64,000 nt of DNA, from positions 51,468,841-51,532,840 of the forward strand of contig CM055095.1 in assembly GCA_029204225.1 (NCBI GenBank), read 5' to 3'. The DNA comes from Diphasiastrum complanatum. Its lineage: Eukaryota > Streptophyta > Lycopodiopsida > Lycopodiales > Lycopodiaceae. Shown piece by piece: positions 30,301 to 53,779 of this stretch. Below the pieces are notes generated by a model. The model was not told the DNA's origin, ran no database searches, and saw nothing but the letters and a program-made list of their open reading frames with translations. The stretch's first letter is position 1; every line of letters begins with the position of its first letter. A program made the translations under genes and the position numbers.

Positions 30301-33300
30301 CCTTGTTGCACACCATGCAAGTATTATGTTCTATCTCTGAGTGCTAGATTAGGTGAAAGGGTCGGCTTGAGGATGATGATTCGTGGGAGAGAGTTGAAAG
30401 CATAAAGAAGAACCTCCCTAATTTCCACTTCTGAGGACAGAAACAGTTCAAGGGGGGAAGAATGTTACGTCCACATCCTGCATATAAGATTCGGCATTAT
30501 CCTAGTCTTGGATACATGGTACTCCAGTACGTGAGATTATTGGTTACGCCTCGTTATTCCGACCTAGGCGAGAATTTTCTTCGGATGGGAGAAGCACACG
30601 AGTTAGCCATCTTTAACGGCTTAGCGAGATGGTCGCGATCAGGTGATTTCAATTGCCACCCTCATAGTGGTGGTCACAGTGTTGTGGATTACTTTATGGG
30701 GCCACCATCTCTTTAACCACTCATCTCAAATCTTATCGTTTCCCCTACCACCATATCAGATCACTCCTTTCTCACATTGTCCCTTTGTTGTAAAGCTAGC
30801 TACAATTCCAAGCATTACTCCCGATGCCACTAGCGCCAACATTGTTCCCGGTGCCAACAGCGCTCCTGTTCCTCCTGAGACCACCGACGATAGTGCCGCT
30901 CCCAAAGTCCCAGCGCCACGACAACTAGAATGCAGCCAACACCAACTTCCTATGGCTCAGAAACATTGATCCGTTCTAGCAAAGTCCAGAGAGCTTAGAT
31001 CAATGGGTAATCACCTCACACGATCTAGGCATGATTAAAGGAAGCCACGGGATCAATAACATTTAGAGAGAGAACATGACTTTTTAGAGAGAGAAAAGTG
31101 TTCTTTACTAGATTGCTCTAAGCGCTTGCTGTGAGGGGAGGTGCTAAATCACACCATAACTATTAGGGGGATGCAGGTTGCAACTCAGGGCGAGCTCCAA
31201 CCAAGTCTCAACTCCCCTTCTAGAATATTGTCCTGGCGCTAGCCTTGGCATGTGTTACACACAAGCTCACAAACCCAAGTAAATACACAGAATTACCCAA
31301 CAAATTCGTCACTTTATTAATCTCAAGCAAATGTACATAGATCAACAAGCAAACATGAGAGCTCTACTGCAAGTCTCCTCCCAACCATAGCTGAATAGGA
31401 ATACAATAGGGAATGCCTGACAGGTCTTACACTATATCCCCTCAAGCACCCCTTAACCCTAACACATCCTAACGTCGACACATGGCAAACTCCATGCACA
31501 GTCGACACTTGCCACTTGGTAGTACCCTAACACATCTAGTAGGTGGACAGTCTAACACGTGTCACTCAGGCATTGGACCAAGTGTCCCAATGAGCATATG
31601 GCACGTCCTGTTGACCCGTCCATTGACCGTCCGACAAGTGTCACTCATGCACTGGACCAAGTGTCCCAGTGAGCATATGGCACGTGGCACGTTGACCAGT
31701 CAACCCTTGCTACATTTTAGGAGGGCAGTCTAGCAGACTCTCATGAGACCCAACACTCCCTTGGCCATCTCGAAATTAGTCACTATAACAGATATCTACA
31801 TTTCAATTTACCTATGTTTTATGGTACCTTTCGAATCGCCTTTTCGAACCGTGTTTGAATTGGGTTTGAATCGGGAAAGAATTGACTTCTCCAAGTTCGA
31901 ACCGGCGAATCGGTTTTACACTATATCCCCTCAAGCATCCCTTAACCCTAACACATCCTAACGTCGACACATGGCAAACTCCATGCACAGTCGACACTTG
32001 CCACTTGGTAGTACCCTAACACATCTAGTAGGTGGACAGTCTGACACGTGCCACTCAGGCATTGGACCAAGTGTCCCAATGAGCATATGGCACGTCCTGT
32101 TGACCCGTCCATTGACCGTCCGACAAGTGTCACTCATGCACTGGACCAAGTGTCCCAGTGAGCATATGGCACATGGCACGTTGACCAGTCAACCCTTGCT
32201 ACTTTTTAGGAGGGCAGTCCAGCAGACTCTCATGAGACCCAATACTCCCTTGGCCATCTCGAAATAAGTCACTATAACAAATATTTACATTTCAATTTAC
32301 CTATGTTTTATGGTACCTTTCGAATCGCCTTTTCGAACCGTGTTTGAATCGGGAAAGAATTGACTTCTCCAAGTTCGAACCGGCGAATTGGCTTTACACT
32401 ATATCCCCTCAAGCACCCCTTAACCCTAACACATCCTAACGTCGACACATGGCAAACTCCATGCACAGTCGACACTTGCCACTTGGTAGCACCCTAACAC
32501 ATCTAGTAGGTGGACAGTCTGCCGCGTGTCACTCAGGCATTGGACCAAGTGTCCCAATGAGCATATGGCACGTCCTGTTGACCCGTCCATTGACCGTCCG
32601 ACAAGTGTCACTCATGCATTGGACCAAGTGTCCCAGTGAGCATATGGCACGTGGCAACCACCAACTCAAAACATCCAATTATAAAGGGAACCACGGAGCA
32701 CGAATATCGCAAAAAATATAGTTTCCAATCATGTAATCCAATTCGTACAATTAGCAATGATTAGCATGATGGATACCTGCTAATCATGTACCTGCTATTT
32801 CAATCTAATCCAAATTCACCAATTCAACACATCCAATTCGTACAATGCACAATTGAATGAATTCTCACAATACAATAGGTACAATAGTAGCAGGTACCCA
32901 TCCAATGTACCTGCTACTGTATTGTGAGAACCAATTGTGCATTGTACGAATGAAATTGGATTACATTCTTACATTTCAAACGATTGTGTTTCAAAACAAT
33001 TTCTCGCTCTCAGAGCTCACCAAGTTTCAATCTTCTTAAATTATGACTTATCAATGATCACAAATTACAATAAGCACTAAAGTCACCAAGATGGAGATAG
33101 AAAATGAAATTGGATGAATCTACTTGATGCTAGTCTTTCTATGACATGTCTAAACCCCAAAAACCCATAAAAACAGTTTTTTTTTTAACCTAAAGAAGTT
33201 TCCCGTTTTGAACGTGAACCTCCTGTTTCGAACGCGTTTCGAAACGACGTACGAAACAGGACCCTAAAACATGACGTTCAAGCAACATAAACCTTTCTCC

Positions 33301-40737: not shown

Positions 40738-41324
40738 TTCATGCTTTGAAGAGGTGAGGGTGTATACATCAAATTATCAGTGCTTTTGCTTGCAGGAACT
40801 CGAATTTGGGAGAGGGATTCAAACTCGTTGAGAGACAAGCTATCTGTGGATCATAAGTGGATCAAAACAAGCCTGATCTGCTCCAACAAAGCCCTGTATG
40901 GACAGAGAGCTCACACATGTGAAATCAGCCCTCATTAATTGAGTGCTACTTCTCTAGATTTGAGAAAAATTGATGTTCTATAGCTTGTTGCATAGGTATT
41001 GAAGAGTAGAATGTGTTGCTTGTGTTTCTAAATAAATTTGATTTATTTTTAGAAGAGTTTTAGGCAATCAGAGAGTTGAGAGAGTACTCAACTTGTGGGA
41101 TATGCCATAGTGAACACACATCAGTTCTTTTCACCATTTTCATCAATTTTCACTGTCCATCAAGTAGAATTGGATAGAAGTGAGTGTTCTGAGGTCTTAG
41201 ACTTTTCATTTCACACAAATTACTGTGTTTGAGTTGAAAGTAAGTTCCTAGAGAGTTTTTCAGTTCTTTGAAACTCGTGGGAGAGATAGACTTCTTACTT
41301 GCATGTGTATTTTTTTTGGTGATT

Positions 41325-42310
41325 GAAGCAAGAATACTTCTAGATTGCTTAAACTTAGAAAACAAATATTTCTAAGTTATCAGAGAGTAGATGAAAGTGC
41401 TTCATCATATGTCATGAGAGTTAAGGATCTTCATCAAGAGTTAGCTGGTATTGGTGATGCCCTTAAGAACACCGAACTTGTTCAAGTAGTCCTTAATGGA
41501 CTTAGAGATGAGTATGACAATATTGTGTAGACTTATGTTGTCAGGGAGGATCTTCCATCCTTGGAGACAGTAGAAGGTGTTCTCATTGCTGAAGAAAGTA
41601 TGCAAGAGAACAAGATGTTGAGGATCAACAGACTTTCATTGAAAGATGGTGGAGATGACAAAGCACTCTTCATCGGAGACAAGTCAAGAGGCAAGGGCAA
41701 AGGACAACAACACTTCAAGAAGGACAAATCCAAGAAAGGTGGTGAGGATCAGTCCTCACAAGCTGCAACATCCAGTAGCAAGAAGAAGCTGTCAAAGATC
41801 AAGTGTTTTTTATGTGGCAAGAAAGGACACTATGCACCAAACTGTTTCAAGAAGAAGAACCAATCTAAGCAAGCTAATCTTACTAATGTGGATGAGTGTG
41901 AGGGTGTTGAGAGTGAAAGAGAGGATTCATTAATGATGTCTACTTTTTCATCTTTTCCTTTTAAGAATGAAGAAGTCTGGTGGATAGACAGTGGGGCTAG
42001 TTCCCATATGTCTAGTTCTAGGAAGTCTTTCACTAGTCTCATGCCATATCTAGGTGCAAAAAGATCAATCTATACTGCTAATGATGTAGAGTGTAAAATT
42101 GAAGGAGTAGGTAGTATTCCACTGCATGCATCATCATCAAAATCTTTTTGCTTACATGACGTACTTTATGTACCTAGACTAACTATGAATCTCAATTGGG
42201 TAGGACAGTTGTTTGATAGTGGATTGGATGTCAAGTTTCAAGTTGACAAGTGTATAATCTCAAGAGAAAATGAAGTTATTGCTAGAGGATCTAGAATTGG
42301 TAAGTTGTAA
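41325..42310 (+). pseudogene. copia gag-protease of element D, copy 1
   Basis: The Gag part starts inside the core (SRLLKLRKQIFLSYQRVDES) and reads to EYDNIV, where a TAG at 41528-41530 replaces the usual Gln; TYVVREDLPSLETVE continues in frame. Then come the CCHC (CFLCGKKGHYAPNC), and protease WWIDSGASSHMSSSRKSF to VLYVPRLTMNLNWVGQ. The frame ends TAA at 42310. The N-terminal 70 or so residues of Gag are absent. Confidence 0.88.
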
Positions 42311-42811
42311 AAACTAGATTCTAGGGAGAGTGCTAACATTTCAGATATTGCTTATGAGACCAAGATTCTTCATGAGGATCTGTGGCACAAGAGATTGGGT
42401 CATCCCAATTTCAAAGCCATGCAATCTATGGTCAAGGAAGGAAAAGCTGTTGGACTACCAAAGACACTGTCAAAGGAGCTTCTAGCTGAAGAGTAGAATG
42501 TGTTGCTTGTGTTTCTAAATAAATTTGATTTATTTTTAGAAGAGTTTTAGGCAATCAGAGAGTTGAGAGAGTACTCAACTTGTGGGATATGCCATAGTGA
42601 ACACACATCAGTTCTTTTCACCATTTTCATCAATTTTCACTGTCCATCAAGTAGAATTGGATAGAAGTGAGTGTTCTGAGGTCTTAGACTTTTCATTTCA
42701 CACAAATTACTGTGTTTGAGTTGAAAGTAAGTTCCTAGAGAGTTTTTCAGTTCTTTGAAACTCGTGGGAGAGATAGACTTCTTACTTGCATGTGTATTTT
42801 TTTTGGTGATT

Positions 42812-52380: not shown

Positions 52381-52807
52381 TGTCGATTAATCTGAGGAAT
52401 GATTCCTTTATTCTGGAGCGACGCAACACATGACGAGTCATCAAGAATGGTTTACAGACTATTCCGCCTACAACATCAAAAGATTCATTCACTTCAGAGA
52501 CAACATCTCACATGAAATAGAAGGTGAAGGTATTATCAGACTAAACTTTCTACACTGACTGTCGAAACAGATACCAAATGTATTGTATGTCTCGAACCTG
52601 ACGACAAATCTATCGACGGTTAGTCATATTATTGATTTAGGACATAAGGTAGAGTTTGAGACAAATTCATGTCAAATTCTTGACAAAAGTAAAGGGTTTT
52701 TGCTCTCAAAAAGAGACAAGGATATATCTAAGGCTCACTCATTGTTATTCTATGACTGATCGTGCTATAGATCTGCTAATAAAGAATTGATTTGTCATTA
52801 TAGACTT

Positions 52808-53136
52808 TGTAGGAATTCGGTGGGCCTTCAACGGATACAACTTAAGCTTTCTAGTTCAGAGGTTGCACCGCGATGCAACTTAACCTTTCTGGTTCAGAGT
52901 TTGCACCAAAATCATGGAGCCTTTTGCCCCTTCCGTGAGCTGCGTTCCGGGATCCCGTCCCCGGACGCCTAGCCGCCCACGAATCCAAGTGCTCCCCCTT
53001 GTCCGCAAAGGGGCTGGTACCAGGGGACATTAAACACTTGGACATTTTTCACTTATATCCACTTTGAAAAAAGTCCCACTTCAACTTTTGGGATTTCTTT
53101 GAGTGTGGGTTGTGGCGCCACTTTGCCATTCCAACA
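52808..53136 (-). repeat. 3' LTR of the miniature element
   Basis: It contains two tandem 38-base units (caactta...gttcagaggttgcacc) near its left end and a GC-rich core with the palindrome cgggatcccg, unlike the AT-rich surroundings. Confidence 0.92.
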
Positions 53137-53182
53137 CTCCCCTCAAAGTGGAGCACAGGTCACGTTGCCTGCTCTGATACCA

Positions 53183-53511
53183 TGTAGGAATTCGGTGGGC
53201 CTTCAACAGATACAACTTAACCTTTATGGTTCAGAGGTTGCACCGTGAAGCAACTTAACCTTTCTGGTTCAGAGGTTGCACCAAAATTATGGAGCCTTTT
53301 TTCCCTTCCGTGAGCCGCGTTTCGGGATCCCGTCCCCGGACGCCTAGCCGCCCACGAATCCAAGTGCTCCCCCTTGCCCGCAAAGGGGCTGGTACCAGGG
53401 GACATTAAACACTTGGACATTTTCCACTTATATCCACTTTGAACAAAGTCCCACTTCTACTTATGGGATTTCTTTGAGCGTGGGCTGTGGTGCCACTTTG
53501 CCATTCCAACA
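53183..53511 (-). repeat. 5' LTR of the miniature element
   Basis: Same length and layout as its partner, with the PBS directly inside it at 53171-53182. Confidence 0.92.
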
Positions 53512-53779
53512 GACTTGGCCACCTTAATCATATGTCGATTGCTAATATGTTCAAGCGTTCTTTAGTTCTTGATTCAGACTACCGAATTGTCGACTCTCTT
53601 GTCTGCCAAAGTTGCATTGTAGGAAAGCAGACTAGAAGGCCATTTGAGTCAAATCAAGAACTTTTTTTCAAATATTTGCTAGACATGATTCCCATTGTAA
53701 AAGCTCCATTTTTTTTTATTTTCAACCTTCAACAACATGGTCATAACTCTTGGTAGAGTTAAATATGAGTGTGTCATGA

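Follow-up and report, generated by a model that had tools for sequence, protein, structure and literature searches.

A Diphasiastrum complanatum TRIM family with an extremely short internal part and mosaics with other LTR elements

Introduction

As described in the cited papers, TRIMs are LTR elements with a total size limit of <1000 bp (PMC3532108), among whose features a tRNA-Met PBS is counted (PMC4077149). Their internal part is typically 100–300 bp (Witte 2001, as cited in PMC4528315), a range rather than a definition, given that an internal part of 72 bp was accepted as TRIM in the maize element Wukong (PMC4528315). Internal parts of 77–80 bp are reported in bivalve TRIMs, of 85 bp in Helenus-1_SMo (PMC10886601), and of a median 82 bp in Asteraceae Cassandra. 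Most TRIM families have no known helper; in 48 plant genomes and GenBank, 278 of 289 subfamilies are reported to lack any retrotransposase-encoding relative (PMC4717578).

Here, we describe an element of this kind in the genome of Diphasiastrum complanatum, located in a 64,000-nucleotide stretch (the window). Like Wukong, it comprises two LTRs, a PBS, and a purine tract (PPT) without coding sequence, shows 5-bp target-site duplications (TSDs), and has relatives in the form of tandem arrays and solo LTRs; Wukong, set beside it by description only, measures 532 bp with 230-bp LTRs and the 72-bp internal part, versus 46–47 bp here (PMC4528315). Cassandra, as described, is similar in size and plan and also forms tandem arrays, but carries 5S in its LTR, for which no match was obtained here. 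SMART/FRetro129, from grasses, is reported to be gene-less, with TGT...ACA ends, a 5-bp TSD, and a proposed copia helper, as here, whereas its dimensions (292 bp, 85-bp LTRs, 122-bp internal part) differ from those of our element (704, 329, and 46 bp, respectively). Retrozymes share LTRs of ~330 bp (in Jatropha), a tRNA-Met PBS, a PPT, and a non-coding nature; however, they are characterized by a hammerhead, a 4-bp TSD, and an internal part of 300–600 bp, compared to no hammerhead match, a 5-bp TSD, and 46 bp here.

Structure of the Element

The element spans 704 bp (52808–53511 of the window) and, given its PBS is on the minus strand, reads from right to left, a direction that the first-pass annotation had not given. 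In this orientation, the order is TSD, LTR, PBS (TGGTATCAGAGC), ~26 bases, PPT (GAGGGGAG), LTR, and TSD. The 5′ LTR (53183–53511, minus strand; TGTTGGAATGG...CCGAATTCCTACA) and the 3′ LTR (52808–53136, minus strand; TGTTGG...CCTACA as read on that strand) are each 329 bp in length and align without gaps at 309 of 329 identical positions, with 20 mismatches (12 transitions and 8 transversions; K2P 0.064). The whole internal part (53137–53182, minus strand) is 46 bp, whereas most of the other copies that were read have 47 bp here. It opens with the PBS (53171–53182, minus strand), which follows the 5′ LTR without a spacer and which we take to be the complement of the initiator tRNA-Met 3′ end, and closes with the PPT region (TTTGAGGGGAG; 53137–53147, minus strand) directly before the 3′ LTR. 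In other copies, the commonest form of this region is TTTGAGGGGGAG, and the PPT itself most often reads GAGGGGGAG; the window core is without one G of the usual PPT, as are the near-identical duplicates L009 and L010. PBS sites with ≤1 mismatch number eight in the window against 0.30 expected. Comparison of the flanks identified the TSD GACTT on the left (52803–52807) and on the right (53512–53516).

The first-pass annotation had described two 329-bp LTRs with a 46-bp gap, a PBS, a purine tract, and the duplication gactt, and both alignment and flanks confirmed its coordinates exactly. It had also taken the locus for a complete transposed element and no chance duplication, which is borne out, as the repeat is too long to have arisen by chance, and the excess of PBS sites and the copies found genome-wide likewise rule this out. 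The internal content it proposed (a PBS, a PPT, and a few other bases) holds, with those other bases numbering ~26 rather than ~20.

Within the 5′ LTR, the likely TATA box is TATAAG (53427–53432, minus strand; counted by hand). A G+C-rich block from TGTCCCC onward (LTR positions 108–202; approximately 53310–53404 by hand, minus strand) is common to a second, otherwise different TRIM-like LTR discussed below, and U5 contains two tandem copies of a ~39-bp unit (approximately 53205–53282 by hand, minus strand). No Rfam family was found in the window at the gathering score (over 52700–53620 at E up to 5, only snoZ40, outside the element), and ARAGORN detected no tRNA in the window.

By the features examined, namely 704 bp with two LTRs, a PBS that we assign to tRNA-Met, a PPT, a 5-bp TSD, no coding sequence, and dispersed multiple copies, the element is a gene-less, non-autonomous TRIM, with an internal length of 46–47 bp where 100–300 bp is typical. 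A possibly new TRIM/SMART family had been suggested, of which TRIM is retained on the strength of features and copies, and SMART is dropped (704 bp vs. 292 bp). The internal part is indeed below the usual 100 bp, at 46 bp, but as a novelty this counts for less, since 72, 77–80, and a median 82 bp are on record. In the TRIM literature surveyed, mostly without full texts or supplements, no internal part <72 bp was met. The LTR_FINDER setting '-d 30' is presumably the least LTR distance. Given that it appears in one study with TRIM settings attributed to Gao 2016, shorter internal parts may well be listed already elsewhere.

Insertion Site, Age, and Neighbouring Repeats

When the flanks are joined with one TSD copy, the reading frame is open across the joint (HYRLGHLNHMSIANM...), and the right flank alone gives a gag_pre-integrs match (E 1e-5, 25.6 bits) below the Pfam cut-off of 28.4. 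The two together suggest that the insertion target was very probably a copia relic (53517–53660, plus strand). Substitution rates used for LTR dating are 6.5e-9 to 1.3e-8 per site and year, which, with the LTR K2P of 0.064, place the insertion at ~2.4 to 4.9 million years ago.

Two further repeats were noted in the window. A direct repeat with 1,487-bp spacing in a copia region (41000–42786) is 100% identical over the 300 bp shown, with a 249-aa ORF in each unit, and either arose by recent tandem duplication or reflects the assembly. At 31423–32689, a ~480-bp unit is repeated in tandem three times, and related sequence is present upstream of the L039 mosaic described below.

Genome-Wide Copies

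The 1.74-Gb host assembly was searched with a 45-bp core pattern covering most of the internal part (146 sites with ≤3 mismatches; reversed-pattern control, 0) and with the junction of the LTR end and the PBS (165 sites with ≤2 mismatches; control, 0). Both totals are complete counts, and the loci examined come from the matches listed. A search with the LTR gave 430 candidates, and the 40 that were scored contain 83 LTR matches. We read 60 loci, consisting of 39 around LTR matches, 20 further exact-core loci, and the window.

Among the loci read, paired TRIM LTRs are spaced 46–49 bp apart, mostly 47 bp. Gaps of 65, 70, and 82 bp (L072, L060/L061, and L017, respectively) consist of the 47-bp core plus pieces of damaged LTR, the 54-bp gap in L071 falls within a single LTR, and the 128–131-bp gaps in L065/L066 involve a different LTR. 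At one place in L015, two LTR pieces directly adjoin each other, with no core. Besides two-LTR copies, the family includes solo LTRs and tandem arrays. The core is exact at 27 of the 146 sites, 20 of them independent; sorted by eye, in a manual reading that covers exact cores only, these 20 comprise 12 plain two-LTR copies (some truncated), one array (L017), and seven mosaics at the LTR/PBS joint (L036, L044, L053, L058, L060, L065, and L067).

The first-pass annotation had proposed looking for other copies with the same core and different TSDs, and many were found, so that the element is no one-off. It had named a lack of other copies, or an internal part that is always longer, as evidence against its reading; the genome instead holds 146 core sites, with LTRs spaced 46–49 bp apart. 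The TRIM family is real, with an ordinary plan and an extremely short internal part.

Several TRIM loci recur with flanks 99–100% alike over 380–900 bp (C15:6202517, 6494502, and 6774718; C6:2227787 and 2554382; C8:11798578 and 25013893; and the C4 window with C1063 and C2059), and are either recent segmental duplications or unmerged haplotypes. For the analysis of TSDs, 15 duplicates were left out of the 60 loci, ten identified by flank BLAST (L009, L010, L013, L020, L023, L024, L026, L029, L038, and L040) and five judged by eye (L061, L064, L066, L068, and L072). From the remaining 45, we removed 13 that did not have both outer ends or were set aside by hand (L016, L035, L053, and L065), leaving 32 independent loci. 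Exact 5-bp TSDs, all different, were present at 12 of the 32, comprising six two-LTR elements (including the window), two tandem arrays, three solo LTRs, and the long mosaic L042. Three had TSDs with one mismatch and 17 had none, several of the latter being mosaics or arrays with true ends elsewhere. At shifted positions, used as a control, 0 of 255 were exact and 5 of 255 had one mismatch.

LTR Variation and a Second TRIM-Like LTR

In 13 two-LTR pairs, minor variants outside CpG were common to both LTRs in 27 cases, compared to a mean of 14.7 when the LTRs were re-paired, and 0 of 2000 shuffles reached 27. K2P was 0.054–0.093 within these pairs, against a mean of 0.080 between loci, in a sample that excludes the ten near-duplicates identified by flank BLAST and LTR pieces <200 bp. 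We considered and rejected the notion that paired LTRs are no more alike than strangers, since the K2P ranges overlap, yet pairs share minor variants beyond chance. Variant sharing and K2P fit normal copying, in which an element inserts with matching LTRs, during a brief burst that was followed by decay.

The ~39-bp U5 unit is present in one, two, or three copies, depending on the LTR. In six of the 13 pairs, one LTR is shorter by a U5 unit; no pair has two short LTRs. The idea that an element's LTRs are always of unequal length was dropped because long LTRs take the first ranks in the LTR search; L056 and L069, from the core-based sample, have two short LTRs.

A second TRIM-like LTR was seen in L065/L066, with pieces recognized by eye in L035, L053, and L016, and with hybrids between it and the first family. 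Its 276-bp form (L065) aligns to the majority LTR with a score of 111.2, compared to ≤65.5 in 200 shuffles. In both LTRs, the best shared stretch (TGTCCCCYGGTACC...) starts 27–28 bp beyond the first TATAAG base and runs to GGGATCCC, so that the spacing between TATAAG and this block is almost equal in the two. The conserved block behind the TATA motif is a probable RNA leader, and offers a lead as a candidate packaging signal. It is the only candidate found for the packaging signals that the first-pass annotation had placed in the LTRs, a placement that seems reasonable.

Mosaics with Foreign Elements

Two mosaics carry exact 5-bp duplications outside the whole structure. In L042 (ATGAC), two TRIM LTRs enclose 2,370 bp of mostly copia sequence which, by eye, runs from the TRIM PBS through a copia integrase piece, then a copia leader, gag, and integrase, to a joint with a TRIM LTR end, PBS, core, and PPT. 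For its last part, a profile search returned Pol_BBD, gag_pre-integrs, and, below threshold, rve. The two LTRs, at 329 and 291 bp, are one U5 unit apart in length, and among the loci read no other TRIM LTR pair encloses a truly longer internal part. L039 (GTAGG on both sides) is ordered as LTR_B (398 bp), PBS, TRIM core, TRIM LTR, pieces of which one is folded back, a tRNA-bearing LTR, parts of copia integrase and RT, PPT, and LTR_B (342 bp). Its domain matches are SH3_retrovirus (E 9.8e-33) and a sub-threshold RVT_2 (29.1 bits; cut-off 31.6), and its outer LTR_B copies align at 81%, largely gaps given their lengths of 398 and 342 bp.

In L036, which has two near-identical duplicates, and in L044, the TRIM core is joined to two parts of a single LTR element. 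This foreign partner has a PBS and PPT of copia type, and no coding part was identified in it; the outer flanks of L036, GTTGT and GTTGC, are at best a damaged TSD. Foreign sequence precedes the TRIM core in L046, with 75% DNA likeness to the copia relic of the window, and other foreign sequence stands directly before the core in L067. In L053, a piece of large-subunit rRNA (Rfam RF02543, 222.6 bits; L053:1092–1401, minus strand) is joined to an inverted TRIM LTR piece, along with a fold-back of the LTR end and parts of the second TRIM-like LTR. On its other side, we noted by eye that L053 runs into copia gag as in L042. Protein domains identify the partner as copia in L039 and L042 only, and DNA likeness does so in L046. 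Most mosaics have no visible TSD or were read short of their outer ends, and their joints fall repeatedly at the PBS, a ~12-bp stretch common to otherwise different elements.

The tRNA-bearing LTR of L039 (4010–4153, minus strand) is 144 bp in length and was also seen at C2:31007325–31007468 and C2:31012516–31012659 (L082, L083, and L084). It contains a tRNA-Thr(GGT)-like gene (ARAGORN; Rfam tRNA, 43.6 bits), and a genome search gave 1054 candidates, 40 of which were scored and were all 99–100% identical. One pair on the same strand, with its members separated by 5.2 kb, is flanked at both ends by GATAC; between the two lie a PBS-like site with one mismatch, a G-rich tract, and a stretch that by eye resembles copia RNase H, with stops. 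Such LTRs seem to occur on full-length copia, beyond the TRIM-sized Helenus. The only literature on tRNA-bearing LTRs that turned up, PMC10886601, describes them in TRIM-sized Helenus, with Selaginella the only plant.

Junctions Leading Out of TRIM LTRs

Exact LTR-end/PBS sites account for 51 of the 165, and 19 of these 51 are without a core among the core sites listed and lie outside the loci already read. We read eight of the 19, at 91 bases each. Diverged cores follow the PBS in L074, L075, and L077, and L076 is a rearranged TRIM. In L073, the TRIM LTR and PBS continue, by eye, into the gag found in L042, while L079 and L080 both lead into one shared leader and L078 leads into other sequence.

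A genome search with L080 gave 1957 candidates, the best 40 of which were scored, showing the leader to be very common. Eight of these 40 also cover the TRIM LTR end (two of them, on C15 and C4742, are 99% alike and possibly one place counted twice), and 32 start at or beside the PBS without a TRIM LTR. In the one leader copy read upstream of the PBS, there was no match to the TRIM LTR. We therefore regard L079/L080 as doubtful candidates for a long autonomous form, the leader belonging to an abundant element without a TRIM LTR upstream (one copy read), which from its PBS is presumed to be copia.

Proposed Mechanism and Alternatives

We consider it likely that the TRIM depends on RNA made by polymerase II, on tRNA-Met priming at the PBS, and on proteins supplied in trans by unrelated Ty1/copia elements with the same PBS. 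Polymerase II would transcribe the RNA from the putative TATA box in the 5′ LTR, initiator tRNA-Met would prime it at the PBS, and the proteins of unrelated Ty1/copia elements would package, reverse-transcribe, and integrate it. The joints coincide with the site of the second strand transfer in retroviral replication, at which plus-strand strong-stop DNA, with the PBS at its end, pairs with the minus-strand PBS. Should the strong-stop DNA (LTR and PBS) of one element pair with the PBS of the other's minus-strand DNA in the same particle, this wrong-partner transfer would produce either a foreign LTR, PBS, and TRIM core, or a TRIM LTR, PBS, and foreign leader, that is, joints at the LTR end and PBS, both ways round. 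Such a strong-stop switch appears the likeliest mechanism for most mosaics, which, as far as sequence can tell, point to template switching between co-packaged elements. Recombination after insertion could account for some of them, and the LTR differences in L042 and L039 need later loss.

The earlier proposal that the element was copied by the proteins of another gains support from the TRIM/copia mosaics, but the autonomous partner with matching LTRs was not found; among the loci read and the 40 of 430 LTR candidates that were scored, no TRIM-like LTR was seen on an autonomous copia, and so no single helper is named. The PBS is common to many elements, so a PBS joint does not tell which of them did the work. 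That one autonomous copia with the same LTRs moves the family, and sits among the 390 of 430 LTR candidates outside the scored set, is improbable, even with just 40 scored and with four of the eight junction sites read leading elsewhere (L073, L078, L079, and L080), given that the gag of L073 was already found in L042 and the leader of L079/L080 belongs to an element without a TRIM LTR upstream (one copy), L073 and L079/L080 being read as chimeras. We likewise think it unlikely that the mosaics arose only after integration, through ectopic DNA recombination or through nested insertion, in which case they would say nothing of a helper. Recombinant complexes do outnumber template-switching ones in Triticeae (20 vs. 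2; Table 1 of PMC1950507), and most mosaics here lack a TSD or were read short of both ends; however, in L039 and L042 an exact 5-bp duplication flanks the entire mosaic, joints recur at the ~12-bp PBS of otherwise different elements, and the rRNA piece and LTR-end fold-back of L053 are as expected of RNA-template errors.

Two further explanations concern the nature of the element itself, and we give both almost no credence. TRIMs in general are thought, according to PMC4717578, to derive from internal deletions, and the family founder may have been such a deletion; as a one-off deletion derivative of a longer LTR element, however, the locus is refuted by independent copies with the same 46–49-bp core and different TSDs. 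Cassandra, Helenus-like elements, and retrozymes, whose LTRs bear 5S, tRNA, or hammerhead sequences with a polymerase III or ribozyme function, are described as similarly small with a PBS and PPT, and a weak box-A-like stretch occurs near the LTR start. Nevertheless, there was no Rfam or ARAGORN match within the element, and we rejected Cassandra, Helenus (TRIMp3), and retrozymes for want of a 5S, tRNA-like, or hammerhead match in the LTR.

Under the preferred trans-acting copia mechanism, copia-bearing TRIM mosaics provide a way to list likely helpers from the genome alone. The 47-bp internal part indicates that little besides a PBS and PPT is needed between the LTRs for copying, and any packaging signal would lie in the LTRs or the ~26 remaining bases. 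It is quite possible, if still short of probable, that TRIM RNAs are packaged promiscuously by several unrelated LTR elements, including copia, with the tRNA-Met PBS as the crossover point, the mosaics as a record of the helpers, and the leader block as the packaging signal.

Comparison with Known Mosaics

Mosaics of this sort are already known in principle. The template-switching complexes of Triticeae, such as VejuL (Sabot and Schulman 2007, PMC1950507), are TSD-flanked fusions of two parents ascribed to jumps between co-packaged RNAs, and VejuL and BARE2 are both said to appear to have been formed by template switching (PMC1950507). The Triticeae complexes are joined through R (PMC1950507), whereas in D. 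complanatum the TRIM and different LTR elements are joined at the PBS.
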